From positions 186,001 to 250,000 of the forward strand of contig NZ_JAFLHG010000004.1 in the NCBI RefSeq assembly GCF_018717645.1: a stretch of 64,000 nucleotides of DNA. The letters are read 5' to 3'. The stretch's first letter is position 1, and the number at the start of each line of letters is the position of its first letter. The DNA comes from Microbacterium flavum. GTDB taxonomy: Bacteria > Actinomycetota > Actinomycetes > Actinomycetales > Microbacteriaceae. Below the pieces are notes generated by a model. It was not told where the DNA came from and did not search any database. It saw only the letters and a program-made list of their open reading frames with translations. Positions 52,398 through 60,936 of the stretch are shown here, piece by piece. A program made the position numbers and the translations under genes.

Positions 52398-53065
52398 CAG
52401 CGCAGGGCGCCCACCGACGCGAGCGCCTGCCGCAGGAGGATCGAGCGGCCGCCCTCCATCTCGGCGGCGAGGGAGTCGGATGCCGCCTCCTCGGGGCTCA
52501 TCCAGGTGACCTCCAGCGCATCCTGACGCGGCTCGCAGGTGCCTGTGACGGGCACGACGAACGCCAGGGACACGGCGTGCTGCCGGTCGTCGTGGAACGC
52601 GCTCACGCCGGGGATCGGGAAGTACTCCGCGACAGTGAAGGGCACCGGCTGCGGCGGGAGGAGCGGGAAGGCCATCGGGCCGAGGTCGTTCTCGAGGTGG
52701 CGGAAGAGCGCATCGCGGATCGTCTCGCCGTAGCGGACCCGACCCGAGACGATCGATCGGGTGATCTCGCCGATCGGCGTCGCCCGCAGCAGCACCCCGA
52801 TCTGCGTGACCTGCCCCATCCCGTCGGTGCGGACGGGGATCGCCTCGACGTAGAGGATGGGCAGCCGGCGACGCGCCTCGGCGAGCTCGATGTCGGTGAG
52901 CCAACCCGGATTCGGGGAGCCTCCGGGCGTGGAGGACCCGAACATGCCGTCGCCGCCCGACGGTCCGCGCCCGCCACCCGCGCGGCCGCCGCTGCCGAGC
53001 GGATCACGAGGGGTCCCGTCGTCGTCGCGCTCGTTCGGGTCGGGGTCGGGGGTGCGCACGGCCAT
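52397..53065 (-). CDS. NUDIX-fold protein (DUF4916-like) with degenerate Nudix box
   Basis: 222 aa. A disordered Gly/Pro/Asp-rich N-terminus of about 50 residues precedes a NUDIX-like domain: WLTDIELAEARRRLPILYVE, IGVLLRATPIGEITRSIVSG. The Nudix box region reads GRVRYGETIRDALFRHLEND. The canonical R-E-x-x-E-E metal ligands are replaced by R-H-L-E-N-D, so only one glutamate remains in phase and normal pyrophosphohydrolase activity is doubtful. The family is often annotated DUF4916 in actinobacteria. The start is MAVRTPDPD; TATACA lies 6 nt upstream. Translationally coupled to the AlbA_2 gene. Confidence 0.78.
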   Translation of the reverse strand: MAVRTPDPDPNERDDDGTPRDPLGSGGRAGGGRGPSGGDGMFGSSTPGGSPNPGWLTDIELAEARRRLPILYVEAIPVRTDGMGQVTQIGVLLRATPIGEITRSIVSGRVRYGETIRDALFRHLENDLGPMAFPLLPPQPVPFTVAEYFPIPGVSAFHDDRQHAVSLAFVVPVTGTCEPRQDALEVTWMSPEEAASDSLAAEMEGGRSILLRQALASVGALR

Positions 53066-53179
53066 GCCTCATGTATACCCCGTCCGCCGCCGGATGCCCG
53101 TCCGCCGCCCGATCGCTCGGGCGCGGCGCCGGGACGGCGTGCTCGGCGGGATGTCGGACGCGGATGCCAGGATGTCGGT

Positions 53180-53860
53180 ATGAGCGAGATCCCCGCCCTC
53201 GACGACGCGGCCGCCCTCTGGTCGTGCCCGCCGGAGGAGCGCGCGGGCAGGCCGCTTCTCATCCTCCTGCACGGCTACGGGTCGCACGAGGGCGACCTGT
53301 TCAGGCTCGTGCCCTTCCTCCCGCCGGAGTTCGTCGTCGCGGCCGTCCGCGCGCCGCTCAGCCCCCCGTTCCCCGCGCCGGGGTGGTCCTGGTTCCCGAT
53401 CGAGGGCGTCGCGGACGCGGCGAGCACGGCCGCGGCAGACGCCTCGGCGGCGGTGACCGCGGCAGCCGAGAGCCTGCGCGCGTGGCTCGGTCGCACCACC
53501 GACCCGGCGACCGCCGTCGGCCTCCTCGGCTTCTCGCAGGGCGGCGCCGTCGCACTGCAGGCGCTGCGGCTCGCGCCGGAGCGCTTCTCGTTCGTCGTGA
53601 ACCTCGCCGGCTTCGTCGTACCGGGAGAGCTCCCCACCGATGCCGCTCTCGCGGAGCTTCGACCGCCGGTGTTCTGGGGTCGAGGAGCGCGCGACGAGGT
53701 CATCCCGCCCGGCCGCATCGCCCACACGACCGAGTGGCTGCCCCGCCATGTGGATCTCAGCGGCCGCGTGTATCCGGGTCTCACCCACAGCGTCTCGGAG
53801 GAGGAGCTCGCCGACGTCCGCGCGTTCCTGGAGAAGCGGCTCGGCGACCTGTCCGGCTGA
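53180..53860 (+). CDS. alpha/beta-hydrolase, phospholipase/carboxylesterase type
   Basis: 226 aa. Oxyanion-hole motif LLHGYGSHEGD (30-39), nucleophile Ser119 in GFSQGG, an acidic residue in GARDEVIP and the histidine in GLTHSVS: a complete triad of the PF02230-type esterases. No signal peptide, so cytoplasmic. CAGGAT lies 6 nt before the ATG, giving a weak leaderless signal. It is followed by the ABC-F leader region in the same direction but not in the same operon, judging from the promoter at 53926. Confidence 0.9.
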   Translation: MSEIPALDDAAALWSCPPEERAGRPLLILLHGYGSHEGDLFRLVPFLPPEFVVAAVRAPLSPPFPAPGWSWFPIEGVADAASTAAADASAAVTAAAESLRAWLGRTTDPATAVGLLGFSQGGAVALQALRLAPERFSFVVNLAGFVVPGELPTDAALAELRPPVFWGRGARDEVIPPGRIAHTTEWLPRHVDLSGRVYPGLTHSVSEEELADVRAFLEKRLGDLSG

Positions 53861-53925
53861 GGCGTCGAACCCCGGCGGCCCGGCACCGGCCGCGCCGGGG
53901 CGGCGGCCCCGGTCGTCGGCGGCCC

Positions 53926-53954
53926 TGGCACCGGGTGCGACAGTCCGGTAGAGT
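53926..53954 (+). promoter_or_regulatory. promoter of the ABC-F transcript
   Basis: -35 TGGCAC (53926-53931), exactly 17 nt, -10 TAGAGT (53949-53954). It places the start near 53961, about 30 nt before the leader ORF. Confidence 0.55.
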
Positions 53955-53990
53955 GTCGGCGTTCCCGTTGCCGAGTGTGAGGACGAGCCG

Positions 53991-54017
53991 TTGAAGCGTA
54001 TCGACGCCGCGCTGTGA
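53991..54017 (+). CDS. 8-residue leader peptide MKRIDAAL
   Basis: TTG start with GAGGA 7 nt upstream, codons for K-R-I-D-A-A-L, then TGA. It lies about 30 nt behind the promoter and 183 nt before the ABC-F start. Its own good ribosome binding site and the complementarity between the downstream leader and the ABC-F ribosome binding site suggest that drug-stalled ribosomes on this peptide could change the leader fold. Too short for statistics, so the call rests on position and the ribosome binding site. Confidence 0.5.
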   Translation: MKRIDAAL

Positions 54018-54106
54018 CCCCGCGCTGATCGTCGATCCTCCGCTCGTCCCGATCGGAACACCGACGCGTCCGCGCATCCATCCGCGCCGACCGTCGACCT
54101 TCTGCC

Positions 54107-54197
54107 GTCCTCCGTGCGCCCGAGCCCCTGTGCTCCCGGGCCGCGCGCCTCCGGGGCTCAGCGTCCGCCGCGTCCGCGCATCCGCGATTCGGAGGAC
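54107..54197 (+). promoter_or_regulatory. Shine-Dalgarno-sequestering leader structure
   Basis: GTCCTCCG (54107-54114) is perfectly complementary to CGGAGGAC (54190-54197), which contains the ABC-F ribosome binding site. Between the arms lies a GAGCCCC/GGGGCTC hairpin (54122-54128 with 54153-54159). A further CCTCCG near 54035 could compete for pairing. Confidence 0.55.
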
Positions 54198-54200
54198 CCC

Positions 54201-55910
54201 TTGCACACCATTTTCTCCCCTTCCCCCGCGGTCGTCCTCGACCGCGTCACCTTCTCCTGGCCCGACGGCACCCCGGCGCTCCACGATGTGTCGGGAGCGT
54301 TCGGCGACGGGCGGACCGGCCTCGTCGGCCGCAACGGCTCGGGCAAATCGACGCTGCTCGCGCTGATCGCGGGCGCGCTGACCCCGGCATCCGGCACCGT
54401 CTCCGCCATCGGCGACGTCGACCTCCTGCCGCAGCGGCTCACTCTCGCGACCGACCGGCGGGTCGCCGAGGTCCTCGGCGTCGCGGCGACGCTCGACGCC
54501 GTACGCGCGATCTCCGCGGGCGACGTGTCCCCCGATCACTTCGACGCGGTGGGCGATGACTGGGACGTCGAGGCGCGCACCGCGGCGGCCCTGTCCGAGG
54601 CGGGGTTGCCTCCGAGCGTGCTCGATCGCCGGATCGGGCAGCTCTCCGGCGGCGAGGCGGTGCTCGCGGCGCTCGTGGGCGTGCGCCTGCGCGGCGCGGC
54701 GGTCGCGCTCCTCGACGAGCCGACCAACAACCTCGACCGCGATGCGCGGGCGCGGGTGTACGACCTCGTCCGTCGCTGGCGCGGGGCGCTCGTCGTGGTG
54801 AGCCACGACCCGGCGCTGCTCGACCTCATGGACGACACCGCCGAGCTCTACGGGAACACCCTGTCCACGTTCGGCGGACCGTACACTCCGTGGCGGGAAG
54901 CACGGGATGCCGAGCAGGCCGCGGCCCGGCAGGCCGAGAGCGCAGCGCGCCAGGTCGTGCGACGCGAGAAGCGCGACCGCATCCATCAGGAGCAGGTGCT
55001 CGCGTCGCGCGCGGCGATGGGGCGCCGAGCCCAGATCGAGAAGCGTGTGCCCGGGATCGTGGCGGGTGCCCGCAAGCGCTCGGCGCAGGAGTCCGCCGGA
55101 CGACTGCGGATCGAGGCATCCGGAAAGGAGGCGCAGGCCCGCGCGGCCCTCGACGCCGCCGAGCGCCGGGTCCGCGACGACGACAGCGTGCGGATCGACC
55201 TGCCCGACCCGGGCGTCGGCTCGGGCCGGCGGCTCGCGACGTTCACGGGCGGCGGACGGTCATGGGTGCTCCAGGGGCCCGAACGGGTGGCGCTGGTCGG
55301 GCCGAACGGGGCCGGCAAGACGACCCTCGTCCGCCGGTTGGTCGACGACGGACGGCAGGACTCCTCCGCTCCGACCCCCGGCGGGGCGGATCCGGCGTTT
55401 CCGCCCCCCTCGGTCGCGAACCGGTGGCGTTCTGTCGACGTCACCGCGCAGACCGACCGGATCGGGTACCTGTCGCAGCGGGTCGATGGACTGGACGACG
55501 CGGGCTCGCCCCTCGAGAACCTGCGCCGGGCGGCGCCCGGTGTCGGCGATGTCGAGCTGCGCGGCAGACTCGCCCGGTTCCTGCTGCGCGGGGACACGGT
55601 CCTGCGGCCCGTCCGGGCTCTCTCGGGCGGCGAACGGTTCCGACTGGCGCTCGCCTGCGTGCTGATGGCGGACCCCCCGCCGCAGCTGCTGGTGCTCGAC
55701 GAGCCGACGAACAACCTCGACCTCGACACCGTCGATCAGCTCGTCGACGCGCTCTCCGCCTACCGCGGCGGAGTGATCGTCGTCAGCCACGACGACGGGT
55801 TCCTCGCCCGGCTGGAGCCCGACCTCGTGCTCGAGCTGCGGGACGGCGCGCTCACGGAGGGAGGCCTGCGGACCGCTGCCGCCGCGAGCCACCCGCCCGA
55901 GCGGGGGTAG
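54201..55910 (+). CDS. ABC-F family ribosome-associated ATPase, candidate antibiotic-resistance protein
   Basis: 569 aa with two ATP-binding cassettes and no membrane helix. First Walker A GRNGSGKST (43-51) with signature LSGGE; second Walker A GPNGAGKTT (about 369-377) with LSGGE. The charged interdomain linker (about residues 235-330, e.g. RREKRDRIHQEQVLASRAAM) is the arm that reaches into the ribosome in ABC-F proteins. The TTG start is preceded by GGAGG at 5 nt. The leader peptide and attenuator-like leader are typical of ABC-F genes induced by ribosome-targeting drugs; housekeeping members usually lack them. The drug class is unknown. Confidence 0.85.
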   Translation: MHTIFSPSPAVVLDRVTFSWPDGTPALHDVSGAFGDGRTGLVGRNGSGKSTLLALIAGALTPASGTVSAIGDVDLLPQRLTLATDRRVAEVLGVAATLDAVRAISAGDVSPDHFDAVGDDWDVEARTAAALSEAGLPPSVLDRRIGQLSGGEAVLAALVGVRLRGAAVALLDEPTNNLDRDARARVYDLVRRWRGALVVVSHDPALLDLMDDTAELYGNTLSTFGGPYTPWREARDAEQAAARQAESAARQVVRREKRDRIHQEQVLASRAAMGRRAQIEKRVPGIVAGARKRSAQESAGRLRIEASGKEAQARAALDAAERRVRDDDSVRIDLPDPGVGSGRRLATFTGGGRSWVLQGPERVALVGPNGAGKTTLVRRLVDDGRQDSSAPTPGGADPAFPPPSVANRWRSVDVTAQTDRIGYLSQRVDGLDDAGSPLENLRRAAPGVGDVELRGRLARFLLRGDTVLRPVRALSGGERFRLALACVLMADPPPQLLVLDEPTNNLDLDTVDQLVDALSAYRGGVIVVSHDDGFLARLEPDLVLELRDGALTEGGLRTAAAASHPPERG

Positions 55911-55939
55911 CCCTGGGCGGACATCCGCGCCGAGGCCCC

Positions 55940-56019
55940 TCTGCGCAATGTCGGGTCTGCGCGATGTCGGGTCTGCGCAATGTCCCCTCTGCGCGATGTC
56001 CCCTCTGCGCAATGTCGGA
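55940..56019. repeat. five 16-bp tandem units before lhr
   Basis: Units of the form TCTGCGC[A/G]ATGTCSSS in strict 16-nt phase; the variable base alternates A,G,A,G,A, while the last three bases change from GGG to CCC. The array ends 21 nt before the lhr start. Confidence 0.85.
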
Positions 56020-56040
56020 GGGTCGCGCGAAGATGGACGG

Positions 56041-60936
<4,896 letters not shown>

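Follow-up and report, generated by a model that had tools for sequence, protein, structure and literature searches.

The Leader and Its Surroundings

The window analyzed here is a stretch of 64,000 nucleotides from Microbacterium flavum, the genome of which measures 3.26 Mb. In this window, a leader is flanked by a carboxylesterase-like gene and by the gene of an ABC-F ATPase, and the latter is followed by a helicase gene. This helicase is identified as an ATP-dependent helicase and is presumably of the Lhr type. The features of the region are listed below, with positions counted from the first nucleotide of the window.

53926..53954, + strand: promoter, consisting of TGGCAC (−35, at 53926-53931), 17 nt and TAGAGT (−10, at 53949-53954); the −10 is conserved
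53957..54036, + strand: conserved leader element, comprising the 5′ part, the Shine–Dalgarno (SD)-like site of the upstream ORF (uORF), the uORF and hairpin 1; from covariance model R1
53979..53983, + strand: SD-like GAGGA of the uORF; from sequence
53991..54017, + strand: uORF TTGAAGCGTATCGACGCCGCGCTGTGA, TTG start, encoding MKRIDAAL followed by a stop; start codon conserved, peptide not
54000..54012, + strand: 5′ arm of hairpin 1 (AUCGACG plus GCGC), within the uORF; from folding
54022..54036, + strand: 3′ arm of hairpin 1, or B1, GCGCUGAUCGUCGAU; from folding
about 54056..54098, + strand: hairpin 2, a second copy of hairpin 1 (GACGCGUCCGCGC / CGCGCCGACCGUC); from folding and a weak model match
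54107..54114, + strand: GTCCTCCG, 8-bp complement to the SD of the ABC-F gene; at chance level
54156..54183, + strand: A3 region (GCUCAGCG...CCGCGUCCGCGCAUCC), candidate switch segment 5′ of the ABC-F SD
54190..54197, + strand: SD region of the ABC-F gene, CGGAGGAC; from sequence
54201..55910, + strand: ABC-F ATPase, 569 aa, TTG start, apparently ARE5-like

An earlier, sequence-only reading of this DNA had placed a promoter here, in front of an ORF of eight codons (MKRIDAAL) with an SD-like site of its own. Both are present, and both were found again in the ABC-F leaders of the genus. For this comparison 150 leaders were fetched, two of which (L032 and L037) were left out as belonging to other families. 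The remaining 148 comprise 28 genus loci, including the window's own, and 120 more from the best ABC-F matches listed. A TANNNT hexamer lies 38-43 nt 5′ of the uORF start in all 148, compared to 1, 0, 0, and 0 of 148 in control scans shifted 100, 150, 200, and 250 nt upstream. A scan of 53800-54300 with the strict sigma-70 consensus yielded no promoter and hence missed TGGCAC/TAGAGT; the promoter is supported by the conservation of the hexamer at a fixed place across the leaders of the genus. Hairpin 1, of which the 5′ arm lies inside the uORF, and its second copy were absent from the earlier reading. Hairpin 2 is matched weakly and partially by the leader model (model positions 39-83, E 0.0037). 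An Rfam scan of 53000-56100 gave six matches, every one under its gathering score, by which assignment of the leader to a known Rfam family was rejected.

In the intergenic region between the ABC-F and helicase genes, a 16-bp unit (TCTGCGCRATGTC plus 3 bases) is repeated five times head to tail, at 55940-56016. The 12-base core of this repeat occurs nine times in the genome, including the five occurrences at 55940-56016.

The ABC-F Protein

The protein encoded downstream of the leader has the ABC-F fold, with two ABC ATPase domains (PF00005, two stretches) and a long two-helix linker. In the predicted structure (pLDDT 80.7, pTM 0.56), the linker helices span residues 228-279 and 285-323. Ranked by E-value, the top 25 Foldseek hits are all ABC-F proteins or complexes containing one, with low TM-scores by query (0.30-0.45). 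Among 195 families, the best match is NF000355, the NCBIfam family of ribosomal protection ABC-F proteins, with a score of 275.7 bits, which is below the curated cut-off of 380.

A tree was made from 38 of 44 rows, after leaving out rows in a wrong frame (L276, L004, L005 and probably part of L044) and rows on long branches (L076 and L112). In this tree, the clade of the window's protein forms one group (97/93) with four ABC-F proteins from Streptomyces, Saccharopolyspora and Micromonospora, the leaders of which contain, as read by eye, the uORFs MLV, MRI, MLI and MAGDDDISG. Two characterized leaders, are5sc (MLV, TTG start) and tiaA (MVGDDDISG), likewise have a short uORF in front of an ABC-F gene, of an apparently neighboring clade (PMC12421871). 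Reading by eye, the uORF of one Streptomyces locus (L042), TTG CTC GTC TGA, encodes MLV as in are5sc, and that of two Micromonospora relatives, MAGDDDISG, is one residue off that of tiaA; the proteins of L042 and L038 are in the same 97/93 clade as the window's ABC-F. From these sequence relationships, the gene appears to be ARE5-like. Another ABC-F of the same genome pairs with one of Microbacterium testaceum (100/100, short branches), and we take this protein to be EttA-like.

Co-occurrence of the Leader and the ABC-F Gene

Of the 295 genus genomes, 250 have the ABC-F at E ≤ 1e-100. For the leader, a covariance model (R1) was built from 28 seed sequences, among which the window's own; its match to the window leader (G000:C4:239957-240036) has an E-value of 6.4e-15. 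At E ≤ 1e-5, R1 matches 94 of 119 genus genomes, with a single match per genome. Such a strong match is present in 93 of 99 genomes with the ABC-F compared to 1 of 20 without, and in 65 of 71 compared to 1 of 20 when the 28 seed genomes are left out. For 69 of these matches the place of the ABC-F is listed, and each of the 69 precedes it by 80-262 bases in the same orientation, by which the possibility that the element also precedes other genes was rejected. For the other 25 of the 94 the ABC-F place is not listed. Among these is G095 (L302, about 100-700), the sole leader without an ABC-F match, in which an intact leader is followed by a decayed remnant of the ABC-F gene. In G095, a helicase gene comes directly after the remnant.

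Six genomes have the ABC-F without a strong leader match, and in the one that was read (G066) the leader is diverged and includes a short uORF that by eye encodes MRNLAVA. The weaker R1 matches, from 2.2e-5 upward among the matches listed, look like background. The named M. testaceum genome has the same leader (R1 E 1.4e-11), with uORF MKNVDASAPLSAR before the ABC-F start. Outside the genus, in 297 genomes of the order, R1 at E ≤ 1e-5 finds G563, where the match lies before an ABC-F gene, and G409, where the match coincides with the beginning of an exonuclease-like frame (judged by eye) and is probably due to chance.

The co-occurrence with one gene argues against the leader being a general sensor of translation stress or starvation, comparable to the uORF of whiB7/wblC and not specific for peptidyl-transferase drugs, or simply a 5′ leader without regulation. 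In favor of a general sensor, a uORF of this kind would stall at any block of initiation or early elongation. However, the uORFs do not contain a run of codons for one amino acid, and the closest studied leaders are reported to respond to peptidyl-transferase drugs (PMC12421871). We therefore regard a general sensor or an unregulated leader as improbable.

A Conserved Start and a Variable Peptide

The uORFs were located by script in 132 of the leaders, accepting only ATG, GTG and TTG as starts, and by motifs set by eye in the other 16. A very short uORF lies between the promoter and the ABC-F gene in 148 of 148 leaders, with its start codon at the corresponding place, and each leader shows the same order of elements: promoter hexamer, SD-like site, uORF and, beginning about 10 nt past the first base of the uORF, a hairpin arm. 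An SD-like string, from a loose list of eight, is present at most 22 nt upstream of the start in all of them. TTG is the predominant start codon (121 leaders), followed by GTG (18) and ATG (9), and CTG does not occur. The base directly after the start codon is A in 145 leaders. Counted from the first base of the start codon, base +11 is C in 148 and base +12 is G in 145 of the 148, both in the 5′ arm of hairpin 1. Hence, the distance between the uORF start and the hairpin is fixed, while the peptide is variable.

This variability is considerable. The 148 leaders encode 53 distinct peptides of 2 to 13 residues, with lengths of 2 (60 leaders), 8 (17), 9 (52), 11 (6), 12 (4), and 13 (9). The two-codon uORFs are MI-stop in 59 cases and MF-stop in one. 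MKRIDAAL is seen only once, in the window, and the nearest relative among the 148 is MKRIDAAQ of L009. One leader (L180) has the hairpin type and the upstream sequence of the two-codon group, yet a uORF of 13 codons; the coding part therefore changes while the RNA scaffold stays. By comparison of the sequences, the promoter, the uORF start, the spacing and the hairpin are shown to be conserved, with the peptide drifting.

MKRIDAAL had been put forward as a possible new stalling peptide, and frame-disrupting changes of the short ORF in relatives had been named as what would speak against the proposed attenuator. Such changes are present, the octapeptide is not conserved, and a stalling role for it is unsupported, as 60 of the 148 uORFs stop after two codons. 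The translational attenuator of ermC resembles the proposed switch in its helices, 1:2 and 3:4 alternating with 2:3 so that the SD is concealed or released, and differs from the leaders of the genus in its dependence on macrolides and on a specific arrest peptide. The conserved stalling peptide of erm-type systems is not found among the 53 peptides and two-codon uORFs described here. That MKRIDAAL and its kin are arrest peptides holding a drug-bound ribosome at an inner codon is thus very improbable, although many of the 88 longer uORFs follow the pattern M-K/T-x-I-D/V-A-T/S-A-L. The letters that they share are mostly found where hairpin arm 1 constrains the RNA, and the uORFs of other genera are, by eye, unrelated. 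In favor of a role for the peptide, the identity of the MIN uORF is described as crucial, and MIN thus as sequence-sensitive, in vmlR of Bacillus subtilis (PMC10201436), but according to a figure legend, vmlR uORF variants from other Bacillus species also work (PMC9226507).

Folding of the Leader

The leader of the window alone folds only slightly better than its shuffled versions (z −1.27). To mimic a ribosome, a 35-nt block was placed on the leader and the energy of opening the ABC-F SD was measured, using the 132 of 148 leaders located by script. The ABC-F starts in this test were picked by script according to SD strength instead of being individually checked, and that of L118 at least is doubtful. 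A block on the uORF start brings the opening energy down by 1.40 kcal/mol on average over the 132 leaders, compared to −0.02 with the leader middle shuffled and −0.02 with the 5′ part shuffled. Per leader, there is a fall of more than 1 in 70 and a rise of more than 0.5 kcal/mol in 23. In 40 non-redundant leaders (<80% identity), the fall is 2.44 kcal/mol compared to 0.10 and 0.09 in the two shuffle sets (Wilcoxon p 3e-8 and 2e-7), with 29 representatives falling and 4 rising by more than 0.5.

The effect depends on the position of the block. With the block centered anywhere between 18 nt upstream and 12 nt downstream of the uORF start, the average fall is 1.1-2.0, and at 24-108 nt downstream it is 0-0.55; near the gene, at 114-150 nt downstream, it is again 0.9-1.7. 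A block on the uORF stop has little average effect (12.38 to 12.13). With the block on the uORF start, the expected pairs between arm 1 and B1 decrease from 8.47 to 2.34, which is partly built in because the block covers part of arm 1, and those between B1 and A3, the region before the ABC-F SD, increase from 0.04 to 3.10. The support for an ABC-F start that is exposed when a ribosome occupies the beginning of the uORF thus comes from folding models only.

Which helices accomplish this is less clear from the comparison. The complementarity of B1 and A3 is moderately above that of shuffles (18.35 compared to 15.37, the real median being reached by 12% of the shuffles), and in the window the two share a 7-bp match with one G-U pair, a pairing to which covariation gives no support. 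Over 29 leaders, B1 and A3 of one leader have no pairing advantage over B1 and A3 taken from different leaders (p 0.24), and B1:A3 was rejected as a covarying helix and retained as a folding prediction only. Pairing of the uORF SD with the ABC-F start is striking by eye, both in the window (GUGUGAGG with CCUUGCAC) and in other leaders (CGUGAGG with CCUCAUG, GUGUCU with AGACAC). It was rejected as well, as matched segments did not outperform swapped ones in 37 leaders (p 0.49). Because swapped segments pair equally well, no particular alternative helix is proven by covariation. Hairpin 1 itself has, among 95 sequences, one pair with a two-sided change (A-U to U-A in 29, lost in 24), and its other pairs hardly vary. 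Altogether, for two mutually exclusive folds of the leader, the folding with a blocked uORF is positive relative to shuffles, and the individual pairings are without covariation support. In the window, which has the extra copy of hairpin 1, the switch may not be exactly the one used by leaders with two-codon uORFs.

The ribosome binding site of the ABC-F gene had earlier been described as hidden by an exact 8-bp complement of its SD. This complement is present, but a match of at least 8 bp is reached in 147 of 1000 dinucleotide shuffles of the window leader, and in 19 of 132 leaders compared to 11 of 132 shuffled ones. The 8-bp anti-SD was consequently rejected as the switch, since the window's match does not exceed chance and that in relatives is weak. 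A concealed start as such is what folding of the whole leader points to.

Control at the Level of Translation or Transcription

Control on translation rather than on transcription is favored, because the leaders do not contain a T-tract terminator. A hairpin followed by a T-tract before the gene, as in intrinsic terminators, was not found: a run of four or more T is present in only 5 of 148 leaders, six or more T within eight bases in 6 of 148, and the window contains no terminator-like site in 53800-54300. Alternatively, the stalled ribosome could prevent premature termination of transcription, at a terminator without a U-tract or one that is Rho-dependent. GC-rich actinobacteria may indeed terminate without long U-tracts. 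Moreover, induction of are5sc was reported with transcriptional fusions, and a premature terminator is described for lmrC (PMC12421871, PMC8546547). On the other hand, the transcriptional fusion of tiaA was constitutive and induction was seen in translational fusions only, for which its authors blame the construct (PMC12421871). Considering this together with the scarcity of T-runs and the opening of the ABC-F start in the folding test, transcription attenuation seems unlikely, albeit the most serious of the alternatives.

A Proposed Start-Codon-Stalling Attenuator

The conservation of the start codon and of its distance to the hairpin, together with the drift of the peptide, favors a peptide-independent attenuator based on stalling at the start codon. 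We consider it reasonably probable that the leader is such an attenuator, controlling an ARE5-like ABC-F ribosome-protection gene and probably acting on translation. Without drug, ribosomes would start the uORF, complete its few codons and depart, upon which hairpin 1 would re-form and the ABC-F start would be kept folded away. A drug acting against the first peptide bonds, i.e., a lincosamide, streptogramin A or pleuromutilin, would freeze the ribosome on the uORF start codon, and hairpin 1, whose 5′ arm invariably begins some 10 nt further on, would lose that arm to the footprint of this ribosome. With the 3′ arm released and the 5′ segment occupied, the leader would then refold and expose the ABC-F ribosome binding site. 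The signal sensed would be the position of the stalled ribosome and not the peptide, and for that reason the uORF could drift and shrink to two codons.

The inducing drugs, the stalling at the start codon and the resistance are inferred from the Streptomyces relatives. In the are5sc and tiaA leaders of S. coelicolor, lincosamides, streptogramin A and pleuromutilins are reported to stall ribosomes at the uORF start codon (PMC12421871). In the same study, the two uORFs are 3 and 9 codons long and the leaders are described as forming terminator and anti-terminator structures; the leaders of the genus lack a T-tract, form another hairpin, and have uORFs that range from 2 to 13 codons without a fixed peptide. 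A third ARE5 ABC-F gene, lmrC of Streptomyces lincolnensis, is described as controlled by ribosome-mediated attenuation in response to the same three drug classes, but through a premature terminator tested by mutation, which is overlapped by uORF2, the loss of which leads to constitutive expression (PMC8546547). In Bacillota, the ARE-ABCF genes cplR, vmlR, vmlR2 and lsaA likewise have very short uORFs (MR[I/M], MIN, MK[L/Q] and MAGN), and leader hairpins are reported to hide the SD of cplR and vmlR, as proposed here. They differ in subfamily and phylum and in having uORFs of three or four codons, and cplR and vmlR additionally in their intrinsic terminators (PMC10201436, PMC9226507).

The kind of system is therefore already known, namely the uORF attenuator of an ABC-F resistance gene. 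The sequence-only reading had compared the layout to drug-induced translational attenuation, which holds for the genus-conserved uORF leader before an ABC-F gene, resembling known drug-induced ABC-F attenuators, and not for the part given to the peptide. Judged by sequence, the leaders of the genus differ from known systems in their two-codon uORFs, the absence of a T-tract terminator, and a fixed spacing between start and hairpin that is separate from a free peptide. A two-codon minigene has been reported in a toxin–antitoxin operon (PMC8708949). Our literature search, partly limited to top results, found no paper on this leader in Microbacterium and no description of the ABC-F gene in this genus, and the main text of the are5sc/tiaA study contains no word beginning with Microbacter (PMC12421871). 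Tentatively, and with somewhat more doubt than the attenuator itself, the leader peptide may be altogether dispensable: the leaders would be genus-wide drug sensors reading only the place of a frozen initiating ribosome, with uORFs shrunk to start-sense-stop (perhaps to start-stop in two other genera) and an ABC-F start uncovered without a terminator.

If the leaders work as proposed, about 150 related leaders, in which one RNA scaffold bears 53 peptides, down to two residues, offer a test of whether peptidyl-transferase drugs need a particular peptide to trigger a resistance gene. The widespread and inducible ABC-F gene would then be a probable intrinsic determinant of pleuromutilin and lincosamide resistance in the genus, and the leaders could provide compact reporters for drugs that stall ribosomes at start codons.

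Leaders in Other Genera

The R1 search misses the leaders of Streptomyces, Micromonospora and Ancrocorticia (best E 0.0125 to none), and the link to these leaders was made through their architecture and uORF, read by eye. A scan of named genomes with a broad alignment returned mostly distant ABC-F proteins, and 6 of the 80 loci were read for leaders. By eye, uORFs before ABC-F genes in other genera of the order include MKFFDGFAPQSAR, MTGISGFATQSAR, MEIEVDRA, MDLICA, MKI and MLL.

In another genus of the same family, four loci (L271, L276, L280, L281) have a distinct leader with, as read by eye, MEIEVDR-A/L/I-stop or MLTPEIDRA-stop. Their uORFs end in TAG, after which comes a GC-rich inverted repeat, and are perhaps leaderless. 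Three genomes of two genera (L287, L289, L321) have, by eye, an ATG TGA start-stop 5′ of the ABC-F gene. Ancrocorticia populi (L040), which belongs to another family, has the same architecture, with uORF MMLIYDLLDAPTAR, then GCGCGCUGACGUCGC, and GUUGUCAGCGCACCCACUGACAAC before the ABC-F SD, all read by eye.
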